From the NCBI GenBank assembly GCA_000209815.1, contig FP929036.1, forward strand, positions 2,005,350 to 2,058,051: a DNA stretch of 52,702 nt, written 5' to 3'. A model generated the notes under the pieces. That model made no database searches, had not been told where the DNA came from, and saw only the letters and a program-made list of their open reading frames with translations. How positions within the stretch are numbered: the stretch's first letter is position 1; every line of letters begins with the position of its first letter. This stretch comes from Butyrivibrio fibrisolvens 16/4. Its GTDB lineage: Bacteria > Bacillota > Clostridia > Lachnospirales > Lachnospiraceae. Positions 23,532-29,203 of the stretch are shown here, in pieces. The position numbers were made by a program, and so were the translations under genes.

Positions 23532-24080
23532 ATGAATTTATATTTAATCAGTCAGATTTTTGCCATTGCAGCCTGTATCTTAATGGTGACAATCGGCTAT
23601 TTGAAAACAAAGAAGGGCATGCTTATTGCCCAGAATATTCAGTTTATTTTATTTAGTATTTCTTATGCCTGCATCGGTGGTGTTGCTGCCGTAGTAGGAA
23701 ATATGATTAGCCTTCTAAGAAATCTTATCTGTCTTAAATGGAATTTAAACACACCACTAAAGGTATTTTTCATTATTTTACAGTTTGGTGTTACATACAT
23801 TTCTTTATACAATGTATGGTTCAGCTGGCTTCCTCAGAACGCTGGTACACACGGCATTATGGATTGGCTTCCATTTGCAGCGGCTACACTTATTACTATT
23901 ACACTTAGTTCAAAGAATCCACTTGTTATTAAACTTGGATGTATCGGCAGTATCATCTGCTTTGGAACATATGATTTTATCCTTCATAACTGGATTGTAT
24001 TGGGATTTGACTGCTTCTCCCTTGGAACAAGCATGATTGGAGTATACAGAATCCTCAAAGACAAGAAGGAACCATTTTAG
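23532..24080 (+). CDS. YgjV-like inner-membrane protein
   Basis: 182-residue multi-helix membrane protein resembling the bacterial YgjV/DUF family of paired-helix proteins. Five to six hydrophobic segments are seen, with GYLKTKKGMLIAQNIQF and the final FDCFSLGTSMIGVYRI typical of the group. Molecular function is not established. It is divergent from the GH127 gene and followed by a strong bidirectional terminator shared with alr. GATGAGGTATTG precedes the ATG. Confidence 0.75.
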   Translation: MNLYLISQIFAIAACILMVTIGYLKTKKGMLIAQNIQFILFSISYACIGGVAAVVGNMISLLRNLICLKWNLNTPLKVFFIILQFGVTYISLYNVWFSWLPQNAGTHGIMDWLPFAAATLITITLSSKNPLVIKLGCIGSIICFGTYDFILHNWIVLGFDCFSLGTSMIGVYRILKDKKEPF

Positions 24081-24085
24081 GAACC

Positions 24086-24126
24086 AAAAAACACCCTGTA
24101 GCTTGATAGCTACAGGGTGTTTTTTT
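24086..24126. terminator. Strong bidirectional terminator between ygjV-like gene and alr
   Basis: A 17-bp stem from AAAAAACACCCTGTAGC to its complement with loop TTGATA carries T runs on both strands. It overlaps the alr stop codon at 24125. Confidence 0.93.
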
Positions 24127-25294
24127 ACATTCTAAGCATAAGTTCCTTATCTACGACTTGGCCATTACGATAATAAACACGTGGTACACGCTTGCTAACT
24201 GCGCAGGTGAGTTCGTAAGGAATTGTGCCAGCAAGTTCTGCTAATTCATCAATAGAATTCTTCTCGCCGAAAATTTCTACTTCACTTCCAACATCAACGC
24301 TAGGCATATCTGTGATATCAATCATACACATATCCATACAAATCTTTCCACGAAGCTTTGCAGGGCCTTCCTTGGTGTAAAGGCTGCACTTATTAGAAAG
24401 GCTACGAAGGAAACCATCTGCATATCCATAAGGAAGGACGCCTATACGTGTGGTCTTTTCTGTTTTAAAGATTCCACCATAGCTGATAGCTGTACCAGCT
24501 GGGTAAATCTTAATTGTGCTGACTGTAGTCTTCATAGTCATAGCAGGCTTCAATCCCATTTCATGGGCAAACTCACCATAGCCATAAAGTAAAAGTCCTG
24601 GACGCACCATATCAAGATAAGTCTCTGGGAAACGTGCAACAGCGCCAGTATTTGCGCAGTGACGAATAGCAAATTTTCTGCCCAGCTTTTCCTCTACAGC
24701 TTCTATTACACCAGTAAACAATTCAAACTGATGCTTTGTATATTTATCACATTCATCGCCAAATTCATCAGCTACCGCAAAGTGTGTGAAGATACCTTCA
24801 GCAGAAAGACCCGGCATATTACAAGCCTCTACAATACCATCTACTCCTGTATCAAAATATCCATTGTCACAAAGGTAACCTAAACGTGACATTCCAGTAT
24901 CAACCTTTATATGTACCTTTAATGTGCCACCACACTTAACTGCCTCCGCGCTGTATTCATCAGCCTTTGCCTTGCAGGTAATAGCCTGTGTAATATTGTA
25001 TTCGATAAGACGACCTACCTGCTCCTTTGGAGTATGTCCAAGAATAAGGATAGGCATCTTAATTCCATTAACACGAAGCTCCAAAGCCTCATCAGCACTG
25101 CTGACTGCCAGATAATCAGCCCCTATTTCCTCTAAAAGCTGTGCCACCTGAACACTGCCGTGTCCATATGCATCTGCCTTTACAACTCCAAGGAACTTTG
25201 TGTTTTCGCCGATTTTCTCTTTAATTTTCTTATAGTTATAGGCAATGGCATCAAGATTTACCTCTGCCCAAGTACGTCTTAGTGTAGATTCCAT
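24125..25294 (-). CDS. alr: Alanine racemase
   Basis: PLP enzyme that supplies D-alanine for peptidoglycan; 389 residues. ATG 25292-25294 follows AGGAGAG by eight bases, so the longer TTG-initiated frame is rejected. The PLP lysine is in VVKADAYGHG and the second-base tyrosine in AISYGGIF. RHCANTGAVARF and DMVRPGLLLYG are conserved alanine-racemase blocks. Monocistronic; the upstream amino-acid importer genes end about 100 bases away without an obvious terminator. Confidence 0.96.
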   Translation of the reverse strand: MESTLRRTWAEVNLDAIAYNYKKIKEKIGENTKFLGVVKADAYGHGSVQVAQLLEEIGADYLAVSSADEALELRVNGIKMPILILGHTPKEQVGRLIEYNITQAITCKAKADEYSAEAVKCGGTLKVHIKVDTGMSRLGYLCDNGYFDTGVDGIVEACNMPGLSAEGIFTHFAVADEFGDECDKYTKHQFELFTGVIEAVEEKLGRKFAIRHCANTGAVARFPETYLDMVRPGLLLYGYGEFAHEMGLKPAMTMKTTVSTIKIYPAGTAISYGGIFKTEKTTRIGVLPYGYADGFLRSLSNKCSLYTKEGPAKLRGKICMDMCMIDITDMPSVDVGSEVEIFGEKNSIDELAELAGTIPYELTCAVSKRVPRVYYRNGQVVDKELMLRM

Positions 25295-25397
25295 TTTAAA
25301 TACTCTCCTATTCAAAATTACTTTCTCATTATACTCTTTTATTTAAATAAAAAAGAGCTTCAAAGGCATTATACCTTATCCACTCTAAATTCTAATC

Positions 25398-26135
25398 TTA
25401 TAGTACCTTTGATAGGAAATCCTGAAGACGCTGACTCTTTGGAGAATCAAAAATCTCAGCTGGAGTGCCCTCCTCCTTAATGCCCTTCTCATCAAAGAAC
25501 ATCACTCTATCGGCTACTTCCTTAGCGAATCCCATTTCGTGTGTAACAACAACCATTGTCATACCGTCATCTGCAAGCTCCTTCATAAGTGAAAGAACCT
25601 CGCCTACCATTTCTGGATCAAGTGCAGATGTAGGCTCGTCAAAAAGAATCACCTCTGGATTCATAGCAAGTGTACGAGCGATTGCTATACGCTGCTTTTG
25701 TCCACCGGAAAGACTGTCTGGATAAGCCTCTGCCTTATCGGAAAGTCCTACACGTTCTAGCAGCTCTAAAGCCTTTGCATCAGCCTCTGCCTGACTCATA
25801 AGACCAAGCTTTACAGGTGCAAGTGTAAGATTCTTCTTGATTGTAAGATGTGGGAAAAGATTGAAATGCTGAAATACCATTCCCACACGACGGCGAACAT
25901 CATTTATATCAACTCCCTTTTTTGTAATATCCGCGCCATAGACATATATTGCACCGCTTGTAACATTTTCCAGTTGATTTAATGTACGGATGAAGGTAGA
26001 TTTGCCACAGCCTGATGGGCCAATGATGGCAATCACCTCTCCCTTTTCAATTTGCATATTTACATTTGAAAGAACCTCATTGTCACCAAAGGACTTTGAA
26101 AGATTCTCAACTTTTATTAAAACTTCGTTAGCCAT
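25398..26135 (-). CDS. Polar amino-acid ABC transporter ATP-binding protein (GlnQ/HisP type)
   Basis: Cytosolic ATPase of an amino-acid importer, 245 residues. Walker [10 protein letters not shown], signature LSGGQKQR, Walker [15 protein letters not shown] and switch His in [12 protein letters not shown] are intact. The A-loop and the LNQLE motif match polar amino-acid transporters. It lies 20 bases after the fused receptor-permease gene and completes a two-gene transporter. No separate receptor gene is present. Confidence 0.96.
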
Positions 26136-26155
26136 TTTCTATTCTCCTACTAAAT

Positions 26156-27661
26156 CTAGCGTTCACTCTTTCTTAAGTTCTTTTCAAGCTTTCCAACAGC
26201 AAGATTAAGAAGCTGAACAATAAACAGATAAACAATTGCAACTCCAATAAGTGGAAGGAATGGCTCGAAGGTAATGCTTCGGATGATATCGCCTCCACGA
26301 GTAAGGTCCATAAGACCAATGTAACCACAGATTGATGTTTCCTTAATAAGTGAAATAAACTCATTTCCAAGTGCAGGAAGAACATTCTTAATCGCCTGTG
26401 GAAGGATGATTGAAATCATTGTCTGCTTGTATGTAAGACCAAGGCTTCGTCCTGCCTCCATCTGTCCATCATCAATGGACATAATACCGCCACGCATAAT
26501 CTCTGCTACATATGCTCCAGAATTTATCGCAAATGCGATAATCGCAACAAGAACCTTTGGAACATTTACAGCTGCGAAAACTACATAGTAGATAATCAAA
26601 AGCTGAATCATAATAGGTGTGCCACGGATTATTGCAAGGTAAAGCTTACATATAGCATTAGCAATTCCCCAGCCTCCAGTCTTATCGTGGGTAACTCTGA
26701 TTATAGCTACAACAAAACCAATAATCATACCTGCAAGTACTGCACATAAAGCGATAAGAAGAGTATTCTGCAATCCCTTTAGGATATATGTCCATCTGCT
26801 GTCATCAATGAAATTTCTCTTGAAGTTATCTACAAGACTAAGACTGTTGCCAGCATTTTTACCATTATTAACAATGATAACCTGCTTTGAGGTAGCATAT
26901 GAGTTTGAGAAATTAATAGATTTTAATCTCTCTTCTGTCATAGTCATACCGGCAATTCCCAAATCTGCCTTGTGTGAATCAACCGCGTTGATGATGCTGT
27001 CAAACTCGATATCTTCAATCTTAACCTGCATACCAAGCTTATCACCAATAGCTTTTACGATATCCATATCGATACCAACAGCCTCACCATTTTCATAATA
27101 TTCATATGGTGGGAATGCTACGTTGGTAACTACTACAAGAGTGCCATTGTCATAAGTAGTTCCCTCTGGAGTAACATATGGGCAAGTACCCTTAGTGTCA
27201 TCGCCGATATAGTTCTTTGTAATCTGCTCTACTGTACCATCCTCAATAATCTCTGAAAGAGCTGTGTTAACCTTTTCAAGAAGCTCTTCATTATCCTTTG
27301 CGATACAGATTGCATACTCCTCTAATGTAAAAGGCTCGTCTAAAATCTCCAGATTCTTTTCGTCCTTTGTAGTGGCAATAGCTGGCTGCTCATCTACGAT
27401 AACGCAATCAATCTTGCCCTGCTTTAATGCCTGAGCTGCATCTGTAATCTTATTATAACGCTCGATGGTGGTGCCGGCTTCATCCCCCTCATAATCCGAT
27501 GCATAAATATCACCGATTGTACCAAGCTGCACACCAATGCGAGCACCCTCTAAATCATCAATTGAATTAACCTGTTTTCCTGTGTCCTTTTCAGCTGTGC
27601 CGCAGCCAATAAATAGTGCTGCTGTCATAGCTAAAAGAATAAGCGATAATTTCTTCTTCAT
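26156..27661 (-). CDS. Fused amino-acid receptor-permease with circularly permuted binding domain
   Basis: 501 residues. A lipobox (FIGC, Cys20) predicts a lipid anchor. Residues 33-155 (SIDDLEGARIGVQLGT to EQITKNYIGDD) match what is normally the second half of a family 3 solute-binding protein. Residues 173-265 (TLVVVTNVAFPPYEYYENG to FSNSYATSKQVIIV) match the normal first half. The halves are therefore in swapped order. Residues 285-495 form a HisM/GlnP-type permease with the EAGRSLGLTYKQT coupling loop. Receptor-permease fusions are known (GlnP); the swapped order is what I find unusual. It pairs with the ATPase at 25398 and probably imports polar amino acids. Confidence 0.88.
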   Translation of the reverse strand: MKKKLSLILLAMTAALFIGCGTAEKDTGKQVNSIDDLEGARIGVQLGTIGDIYASDYEGDEAGTTIERYNKITDAAQALKQGKIDCVIVDEQPAIATTKDEKNLEILDEPFTLEEYAICIAKDNEELLEKVNTALSEIIEDGTVEQITKNYIGDDTKGTCPYVTPEGTTYDNGTLVVVTNVAFPPYEYYENGEAVGIDMDIVKAIGDKLGMQVKIEDIEFDSIINAVDSHKADLGIAGMTMTEERLKSINFSNSYATSKQVIIVNNGKNAGNSLSLVDNFKRNFIDDSRWTYILKGLQNTLLIALCAVLAGMIIGFVVAIIRVTHDKTGGWGIANAICKLYLAIIRGTPIMIQLLIIYYVVFAAVNVPKVLVAIIAFAINSGAYVAEIMRGGIMSIDDGQMEAGRSLGLTYKQTMISIILPQAIKNVLPALGNEFISLIKETSICGYIGLMDLTRGGDIIRSITFEPFLPLIGVAIVYLFIVQLLNLAVGKLEKNLRKSER

Positions 27662-27698
27662 GAATTTTTATTCCCTCGTTCTGAATTTTTATGCATAT

Positions 27699-27726
27699 AT
27701 ATTAACACAAAATGAATAAATATCAA
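27699..27726 (-). promoter_or_regulatory. Promoter of the amino-acid importer
   Basis: TTGATA (27721-27726) and TAATAT (27699-27704), 16 bases apart on the minus strand, lie about 35 bases upstream of the ATG. Confidence 0.4.
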
Positions 27727-27739
27727 TAGAAAAATTAAA

Positions 27740-27771
27740 AGAGAATCTAACTAATTTAAGCCAGATTCTCT
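27740..27771 (-). terminator. Terminator of the sce7726-like gene
   Basis: AGAGAATCT pairs with AGATTCTCT across 14 bases; TTTTAATTTTTC follows on the minus strand. It lies 39 bases after the stop at 27811. Confidence 0.7.
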
Positions 27772-27810
27772 ACTGTAAGTATTATTCAATTATTTTCTTT
27801 GCTAATCGTC

Positions 27811-28530
27811 TTACGCGACGAACTCTTGTGGATTTTTAGTGCCTCTTCTACGAGGATTCTTCTCCTTTTGGTATTCCTTAATATCGGCAAGAAGCTTTTC
27901 ATAATCACGCTCAAATAATAGCTCGCTGATTTCTTTATTAAGATCTGCAGGATTAAGCTTTGTCTCCGGAATTACAGGTTCTGTTCCTGCTTCCTTTGCA
28001 GCTTTCTTTATCCTGGCAACCTCAGCTTTTGTAGGAGGAGTCTTTGTCCATTCAATTAGTTTCTTTCTGACGAATGGTTTGCTCTGCCCGTTGTACTTAG
28101 GCATATTAAATCTTTCTAATAGAATGCCAAGTTCCGGGCGCCACAAAAGTTCCAGCTTGCGCTCTATTTTCATCTTTTTATTAGGCTGTGGATGTCTAAG
28201 GAAATAAAAATCAGCCTTGTCATCTATCTCATCCACAGTAATAATACCCCAGTGCTCAGGAATATGCTCTTCTATGTGATTAGCATGAGAGCTTCCCACA
28301 ACAACCATATTGTAATCAAAATATTTATCGTAATCCTTTATCTGGCCATCTAATCTGGTATAGGTATCTGCGTCGGATTTAATCTCAATCCCTACCAGTG
28401 CACCAGTAATTACCATATACACATCAGCCCTTGATTTACCTATCATCTTCTCTTCATAGATTCTGGTTTTGCCATATTCTATTTCCAGATAGTCAAATAA
28501 GGCTTCTCGAATATCTTTATCCTTTAGCAT
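27811..28530 (-). CDS. sce7726-like protein with a PD-(D/E)xK nuclease-type fold
   Basis: 239 residues. The N-terminal half carries a nuclease-like core, ADVYMV followed by GIEIKSDADT and QIKDYDKYFD, in the spacing seen in restriction-endonuclease-like folds and in sce7726 family proteins. Such proteins are of unclear role, often near mobile or defence genes. A helical Lys/Glu-rich C-terminus (about 160-239) is less conserved. It follows the phosphatase gene by 21 bases. The ribosome site (AAAGGC) is weak. Confidence 0.7.
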   Translation of the reverse strand: MLKDKDIREALFDYLEIEYGKTRIYEEKMIGKSRADVYMVITGALVGIEIKSDADTYTRLDGQIKDYDKYFDYNMVVVGSSHANHIEEHIPEHWGIITVDEIDDKADFYFLRHPQPNKKMKIERKLELLWRPELGILLERFNMPKYNGQSKPFVRKKLIEWTKTPPTKAEVARIKKAAKEAGTEPVIPETKLNPADLNKEISELLFERDYEKLLADIKEYQKEKNPRRRGTKNPQEFVA

Positions 28531-28551
28531 ATATATTTTGCCTTTTCTTAA

Positions 28552-29019
28552 TTAATTGCCCAGATGCTTAAGTAAACCTTCGCAGCCTCGTACTACATCA
28601 TCATAGCATACATCAAACTTTCTTGTGTACCAAGGGTCATCAATATCACGAGGCCTGTCTGTGAAATCTAAAAGTCTATAAATCTTATCATCTTTGTCAG
28701 GACCGAATTCATATGCAAGGTCTCGCATATTCTCTGCATCCATTCCAATAATATAATCGTATTCACGATATTCGTCTTTGCGAATATGTCTGGCAGCATA
28801 TCCATCACAGTTTATCCCTTTGGCATTAAGCACCTGCCGCACTGGAGGGTAAACCGGATTTCCAATCTCCTCATAAGTCATAGCTGCACAATCAATATAA
28901 AAATCTTGGCTGATTCCGCGCTTATCAACCATATCCTGTAATACATATTTAGCCATTGGGGATCTACAGATGGAGCCGTGGCAAACAAAAAGTATTTTTT
29001 CATTATTTAATCTCCGCAT
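28552..29019 (-). CDS. Low-molecular-weight protein tyrosine phosphatase; start probably frameshifted
   Basis: Cytosolic phosphatase, 150-155 residues. The CX5R active site is CHGSICR near the N-terminus, and the general acid Asp is in DDPWYTRKFD. As sequenced, the only in-frame start is at 29019, giving an odd MRRLNNEKILF leader. A better start is ATG 29001-29003 with GGAG eight bases upstream; it reads ATGAAAAAATAC and would give the family-typical MKKILFVCHG if the run had one more A (T run at plus 28995-29000). Targets are unknown; relatives act on tyrosine kinases of capsule and exopolysaccharide synthesis. Confidence 0.9.
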   Translation of the reverse strand: MRRLNNEKILFVCHGSICRSPMAKYVLQDMVDKRGISQDFYIDCAAMTYEEIGNPVYPPVRQVLNAKGINCDGYAARHIRKDEYREYDYIIGMDAENMRDLAYEFGPDKDDKIYRLLDFTDRPRDIDDPWYTRKFDVCYDDVVRGCEGLLKHLGN

Positions 29020-29203
29020 AAGTTAACGTCTATCTTTAATAATACTTGTATTATACATATTGGTCAGTGTTAAAGAAAGACTACATTAAAGCTAGAGCAA
29101 CATAGAGGACTAGCTTAAAGGTAAACCGACCAATCACGCTTGTAAAACATCTGGAATTGCTTTAATTACATCATTAAATGAACCTACTTACTCTATCTAC
29201 TAA

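Follow-up and report, generated by a model that had tools for sequence, protein, structure and literature searches.

Introduction

Circular permutation of solute-binding proteins (SBPs) in nature is already known. Tp0684/MglB-2 of Treponema pallidum, named 'Type Ic', is described in PMC4990184 as a crystallised natural circular permutant that binds glucose and changes shape, and the glycine-betaine receptors OpuAC and ProX are, according to PMC2395249, permutation relatives recognized by structure at less than 24% identity. In the fused amino-acid importer GlnPQ, 14 amino acids (aa) separate the receptors and 19 aa lead to the permease (PMC8025302). Searches of open-access PMC articles brought up no natural permutant among family-3 amino-acid receptors; PMC9732360 concerns a permuted GFP sensor. 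The subject of this work is a gene for a 501-aa protein in a 52,702-nucleotide stretch of the Butyrivibrio fibrisolvens 16/4 genome, hereafter called the window (GCA_000209815.1, contig FP929036.1, positions 2,005,350 to 2,058,051), in which a permuted family-3 SBP is fused to a polar-amino-acid permease.

Results

The receptor segments stand in a permuted order

Three segments were defined in the receptor: N covers the initial part of lobe 1, B is lobe 2, and T comprises the second hinge strand with the C-terminal helices that pack on lobe 1. An ordinary family-3 SBP reads N-B-T, and the 501-aa protein reads B-T-N and then permease (Table 1). Searched with PF00497, the whole protein aligned profile positions 1-96 to residues 175-270. 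Submitted apart, residues 168-272 matched profile positions 1-95 at 99.6 bits and residues 28-160 matched positions 85-131 at 34.1 bits (cut-off 26.4 for both); the current model has 132 positions and scarcely spans lobe 2. A profile search of the genome found the same reversed order of the PF00497 parts at the DNA level. In a sequence search of the PDB, positions 9-107 of AncQR (4zv1) aligned with residues 172-269 (E 2.8e-21) and positions 108-232 with residues 30-153 (E 8.2e-21), and the two halves tile AncQR without overlap. Because they are complementary in this way, the halves represent one receptor in reversed order, and two separate small receptors were ruled out.

Pfam, NCBIfam and the PDB sequence search agreed in placing N after B-T. 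Judged by its sequence, the 501-aa protein is a homologous permutant of SBP_bac_3 and not a canonical member, as its order is B-T-N where PF00497 membership calls for N-B-T. It also lacks the two receptors that precede the permease in a GlnP-type tandem, having one N, one B and one T. A first-pass annotation of this DNA, made from the letters, had described a lipobox followed by a second-half receptor block, a first-half block and a permease. This layout is borne out by the PF00497 and AncQR alignments: both parts of the profile were found, in reversed order, and the segments are complementary halves of AncQR, neither two complete small receptors nor a normal-order alignment. Circular permutation of the SBP, with the cut at the first hinge crossing, is confirmed at the level of sequence.

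The same annotation had suggested that the fold could be intact with new termini. The AlphaFold2 model of the SBP alone (residues 24-270) is in keeping with this, forming one confident unit with a predicted local distance difference test score (pLDDT) of 92.3 and a predicted template modelling score (pTM) of 0.82. Template modelling (TM) scores against single family-3 receptors were low in Foldseek and VIA (0.39 and 0.41 for 4g4p) because both searches preserve chain order. The best order-keeping match across the whole domain was OpuAC (2b4l).

In 190 receptor units spanning all three segment orders described below, the column of Arg245 held R in 189 and that of Asp90 held D in all 190. These columns align with the alpha-carboxylate- and alpha-amino-binding residues of GlnBP and HisJ. 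The Thr242 column held T in only 153 of the 190 units and mostly N or K among units of T-N-B order. Ratios of nonsynonymous to synonymous substitution (dN/dS) were 0.035-0.113 for the receptor in seven of eight pairs, the eighth being undefined, and 0.064-0.152 for the permease in seven of eight, with one undefined; the values are rough, as dS exceeded 1 in several pairs. They indicate that selection on the SBP is purifying.

The B-T-N order is widespread in Lachnospiraceae

The gene was found in 27 of the 29 genomes of the genus, and its order was B-T-N in all 27, including a copy in G015 that starts only at residue 32. Two genomes lack it: in G014 a permease is accompanied by a receptor of N-B-T order, and G006 has just a distant relative, L115. 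L115 is a more distant fusion in the same genus, read by eye as one B-T-N-permease chain of 551 aa. The window's own genome also contains a paralogue of normal order with a separate permease (L001, G000:C1:2114748-2116146), 51-52% identical in each half. Another PF00497 protein of that genome, of 761 aa (L008, G000:C1 near 1047172-1048029), looks like a sensor histidine kinase whose input domains are family-3 receptors and was set aside as not a transporter.

Relatives were scanned with one genome per species, and the best 80 of 110 matches gave 78 loci. B-T-N and permease lie in a single chain in 40 loci, and 24 have free B-T-N receptors (25 proteins); the remainder are one triple array (L047), ten loci of normal order, and L073, L058 and L083, which are damaged or cut. 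Among the matches listed were Pseudobutyrivibrio, other Lachnospiraceae, Fibrobacter metagenome-assembled genomes (MAGs), Ruminobacter amylophilus, Succinimonas amylolytica, alphaproteobacterial MAGs and one Methanosarcinaceae MAG. The classification as a whole covered 241 frames, or 187 after duplicate removal (182 with permease in the tree); 104 of the 187 SBPs were single-copy B-T-N, 60 of them fused and 44 free. The annotation had proposed a survey of Lachnospiraceae for the same order, and this survey found B-T-N to be widespread and a second permutation, T-N-B, to be present as well. A contiguous match to the window receptor occurred in at least 65 of 299 genomes of the family, at least 17 of 246 of the order (11 of these in the same family) and at least two of 348 of the phylum (the genome of the window itself and another from the family); these counts are lower bounds, as only some candidates were scored per genome. 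With the Ruminobacter receptor as query, nine of 56 genomes of its family matched.

The B-T-N fusions of Fibrobacter and Succinivibrionaceae (L044-L046, L050-L056) cluster in trees (99/96) despite belonging to different phyla, a placement that suggests transfer between phyla. The B-T-N receptor of the Methanosarcinaceae MAG (L074:1412-2356) has no lipobox, and its C-terminal tail is hydrophobic and arginine-rich, as if the anchor had been altered after transfer into an archaeon; contamination of the MAG is possible. Two neighbouring free B-T-N receptor genes were seen in L038 (1963-3726), where one permease gene comes after them, and in L142. A Fibrobacter MAG has a second, free B-T-N receptor of 284 aa (L168, G894:C29:14541-15242).

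Three orders nearly exclude one another

The T-N-B order occurs in L158, L246 and a larger clade around L184, whose chains start just before the second hinge strand and end in lobe 2. A T-N-B query had a match in 31 of 299 Lachnospiraceae genomes and in one of 299 genomes of a phylum sample, also of Lachnospiraceae; segment hidden Markov models (HMMs) confirmed the order in all 30 fetched loci of the 31 matches. Pfam detected the T piece in L184 (profile 98-131) and L158 (98-130) and did not detect the B piece, whose assignment relies on sequence and on the segment HMMs built in this analysis; PF00497 scarcely covers B. L246 and L158 are 74.3% and 67.3% identical to N-B-T receptors (the 74.3% pair being T-N-B L246 and N-B-T L182), 66.3% identical to each other, and 46.9% and 41.5% identical to the large T-N-B clade.

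An N-B-T query matched 95 genomes in the same sample of 299 from the family. Before counting, G058 was reassigned to T-N-B (L246) and G222, with its triple N-B-T array, was taken out of B-T-N, which left 63 genomes with B-T-N, 32 with T-N-B and 94 with N-B-T. The order was checked on fetched loci for 33, 31 and 32 of these, respectively, and taken from contiguous matches and frame length for the others; the B-T-N match in G194 is partial. No genome had both B-T-N and T-N-B (6.7 expected, hypergeometric P 3e-4), one had B-T-N and N-B-T (19.8 expected, P 5e-11), and one had T-N-B and N-B-T (10.1 expected, P 5e-5). These P values are rough, given that the genomes are related and the thresholds unequal (1e-40, 1e-40, 1e-45). 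The two exceptions are the window's own genome, with its N-B-T paralogue, and G195. Near-exclusion of the orders fits alternative forms of one importer.

Tandem arrays and linkers

Two loci contain triple arrays. L245 (G222) encodes three N-B-T copies and a permease in 973 aa, with copies 93.0-94.5% identical, and L047 encodes three B-T-N copies and a permease in 1040 aa, with copies 42.9-77.3% identical. L247 (G007:C4:130500-135500) and L248 (G009:C40:1000-6000), more distant fusions in the genus, appear by eye to have two tandem B-T-N receptors before the permease, in chains of 759 and 774 aa; the segment HMMs detect only part of these receptors. The linker between T and N measures 15-22 aa in 107 B-T-N units, 16-18 aa in 33 T-N-B units and 12-13 aa in L245. 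The B-T-N linker resembles the intercopy spacing of L245 and the 14 aa that separate the receptors of GlnPQ, though it is somewhat longer, and a KGTxPY-like core is discernible in many rows of the alignment of relatives.

The lipobox is an established motif, and a simple pattern for it is present in 86 of the 104 single-copy B-T-N relatives; in these 86 proteins lobe 2 starts a median of nine residues past the lipobox Cys. Free B-T-N receptors have their C-terminus 2-3 residues beyond segment N in 40 of 44 cases.

Trees and the number of origins

The reordered-receptor tree held 190 units, with L002 dropped and array copies counted apart, and a mixture-model tree was made from 67 hand-picked rows of the 190. 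The receptor-plus-permease tree and its tests used 51 of the 67 rows; 13 loci were thinned, and L159, L157 and L043 were dropped as long-branched or odd. L073 was excluded for an unread base and a broken frame. On the two reordered-receptor trees (190 rows and 67 rows) T-N-B requires three order changes in both, and B-T-N three and two, respectively. In the 51-row tree, 21 of 23 B-T-N rows fell in one clade (100/100), nested in a group that also contains N-B-T rows (94/94). L156, a B-T-N receptor, pairs with the N-B-T receptor L227 (98/90), and L153 likewise lies outside the main B-T-N clade. In approximately unbiased (AU) tests, a single B-T-N origin was not rejected (p 0.306 with the SBP, 0.221 with the permease added). 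For a single T-N-B origin p was 0.20 with the SBP and 0.041 with the permease, the group having been chosen after the trees were viewed. Two or more origins of T-N-B are suggested, not shown, by these results, and recurrent permutation is likewise suggested rather than proven.

Features of the locus

The permease domain scored 76.7 bits with PF00528 (cut-off 26.4) and 70 bits with TIGR01726 (cut-off 42.2), and among the named families in NCBIfam and the PDB, those nearest to this importer handle cystine, glutamine and arginine. An ATPase homologue lies 3' of the permease in 180 of 187 relatives; in the other seven, five had no permease in view, one was at a locus end and one was not found. No missing receptor half is hidden at the locus: the 149 bases upstream have stops in all three coding-strand frames, and downstream just 20 bases separate the gene from the ATPase gene. 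Between 25200 and 28000 there are 12 promoter-like sites, where shuffled sequences had a mean of 8.6 (standard deviation 2.6), and one terminator-like hairpin, where they had a mean of 2.0. No Rfam family reached its gathering score within 24000-29200. Beyond the ATPase gene, in the same orientation, comes a gene (24125-25315) named by eye as alanine racemase-like.

Table 1. Features of the receptor-permease gene and its surroundings, in window positions.
Feature	Positions	Strand	Basis
Whole gene, permuted family-3 SBP fused to polar-amino-acid permease, 501 aa	26156..27661	-	Open reading frame (ORF), Pfam, PDB sequence search, genus conservation
Signal peptide with lipobox-like end LFIGC, Cys20	27602..27661	-	Sequence
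Segment B (lobe 2), residues 30-103, with Asp90	27353..27574	-	Sequence alignment
Segment T (second hinge strand and C-terminal helices of lobe 1), residues 104-155	27197..27352	-	PF00497 85-131
New T-to-N linker, residues 156-171, bridging ancestral C- and N-termini	27149..27196	-	Linker lengths in B-T-N units
Segment N (first part of lobe 1), residues 172-266, with Arg245, ending in first hinge strand	26864..27148	-	PF00497 1-96
Receptor-to-permease linker, about residues 267-280	26822..26863	-	14-21 aa in 61 fused proteins
Permease domain (BPD_transp_1; TIGR01726 above cut-off), about residues 281-500	26162..26821	-	Pfam, NCBIfam
ABC (ATP-binding cassette) ATPase gene adjoining the receptor-permease gene, same strand	25398..26135	-	ORF and conserved neighbourhood in relatives
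Promoter-like site ahead of gene, TG before second hexamer	27699..27726	-	Consensus match only
Terminator-like hairpin, probably of upstream gene	27740..27771	-	Consensus match only

Discussion

The 501-aa protein very probably serves in a functional ABC importer for polar amino acids, with a tethered receptor that arose in nature as a circularly permuted family-3 SBP. The cut lies at the first strand that crosses between the lobes, a linker of about 16 aa joins the old termini, and the chain runs from lobe 2 through the second hinge and all of lobe 1 to the permease. Each lobe would thereby become continuous in sequence, with both lobes and the cleft retained; the lobes would be crossed by one covalent strand, against two in normal receptors, and the first hinge strand would form the new C-terminal end of the receptor. 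Lobe 1 would lie next to the permease and lobe 2 would bear the lipid-anchored N-terminus. As ordinary SBPs do, the receptor may close its two lobes around an amino acid and then pass it to the permease.

The most likely origin is an in-frame tandem duplication of the receptor and trimming of its ends, in which loss of the first N and of the last B-T would leave B-T-N. Loss of the ends of a triple array like those found would directly yield B-T-N or T-N-B. The first-pass annotation had proposed a tandem receptor like GlnP as the source; a tandem route is plausible and gains some support from the triple array of L245, but it is not proven, and a self-tandem would serve equally well as a GlnP-like pair. 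An unlikely alternative to duplication and trimming is recombination, or a split into half-genes that later fused again. Trees of the permease and of the SBP disagree in places, so that exchange of parts may happen, and for the window protein the identities over N are weakly correlated with those over B+T. Against this, triple tandem arrays exist, and no clear free half-receptor gene was seen in 248 loci, a weak argument in that the loci were picked by receptor searches and the scan covered frames of 120 aa or more. A few loci gave partial matches: L083 is a fragment at the end of a contig, the frame of L073 is damaged, and L003, L004, L006/L008 and L115 are distant paralogues.

Less probable still is a pairing in trans, with the permease homodimer joining two chains so that lobe 2 of one closes on lobe 1 of the other as a domain-swapped receptor pair. 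A homodimeric importer of this type, GlnPQ, contains two fused chains (PMC8025302), and a single covalent lobe crossing would ease domain swapping. However, 44 of the 104 single-copy B-T-N proteins are free and have no permease to hold the chains together, and the AlphaFold2 model, computed for a single chain, is confident. It is very improbable that each segment is a small domain in its own right, or that the receptor has decayed and is retained only for the sake of the permease: nothing but the odd order favours this, and against it stand the complementary halves, an SBP dN/dS as low as that of the permease and the retained ligand residues. An assembly or frameshift artefact is scarcely credible for a single-contig genome of 3.16 Mb with 26 further genus genomes and matches in Pseudobutyrivibrio xylanivorans DSM 14809, Ruminobacter amylophilus DSM 1361 and Succinimonas amylolytica DSM 2873.

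Beyond the single gene, we see an even chance that Lachnospiraceae and their close relatives have one amino-acid receptor in three cyclic orders, cut at each hinge crossing, the forms replacing one another between genomes. Several permutations would have been fed by tandem arrays, possible intermediates between orders, and the tether, formerly on lobe 1, would have moved to the hinge, where it might tune receptor opening at the membrane. Nature seems to have reshuffled a common protein circularly with its job retained. Whether two covalent hinge strands are necessary in a Venus-flytrap receptor is a question for which these proteins provide a natural experiment, and they offer naturally permuted scaffolds for biosensors. 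An order-blind reading of family hits would conceal such permutants.

Canonical family-3 SBPs such as AncQR share with the 501-aa protein full-length homology of both halves and the ligand Arg and Asp, and differ from it in segment order. GlnPQ of Lactococcus (SBD1-SBD2-permease; PMC8025302) is similar in having receptors fused before an amino-acid permease, a separate ATPase and similar linkers; its GlnP has two normal-order receptors where the 501-aa protein has one permuted receptor, and residues 30-263 are collinear with 101-327 of 6h30, the later part of SBD1 and the first part of SBD2. Tp0684 (PMC4990184) is likewise a permuted, tethered ABC-importer receptor with kin in Gram-positive gut bacteria. 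It differs as a sugar receptor of fold type I, a separate lipoprotein with another cut site that adds a fourth lobe crossing; the sequence relatives of the 501-aa protein are family-3 amino-acid receptors, which places it outside 'Type Ic'. OpuAC and ProX (PMC2395249) show a permutation relation among bilobed receptors, with other substrates and between distant kin, whereas here the order shifts within one subfamily (L246 and L182). In the Tp0684 and betaine cases the permuted and normal forms are distant relatives; here three orders of one receptor coexist, partly at high identity.
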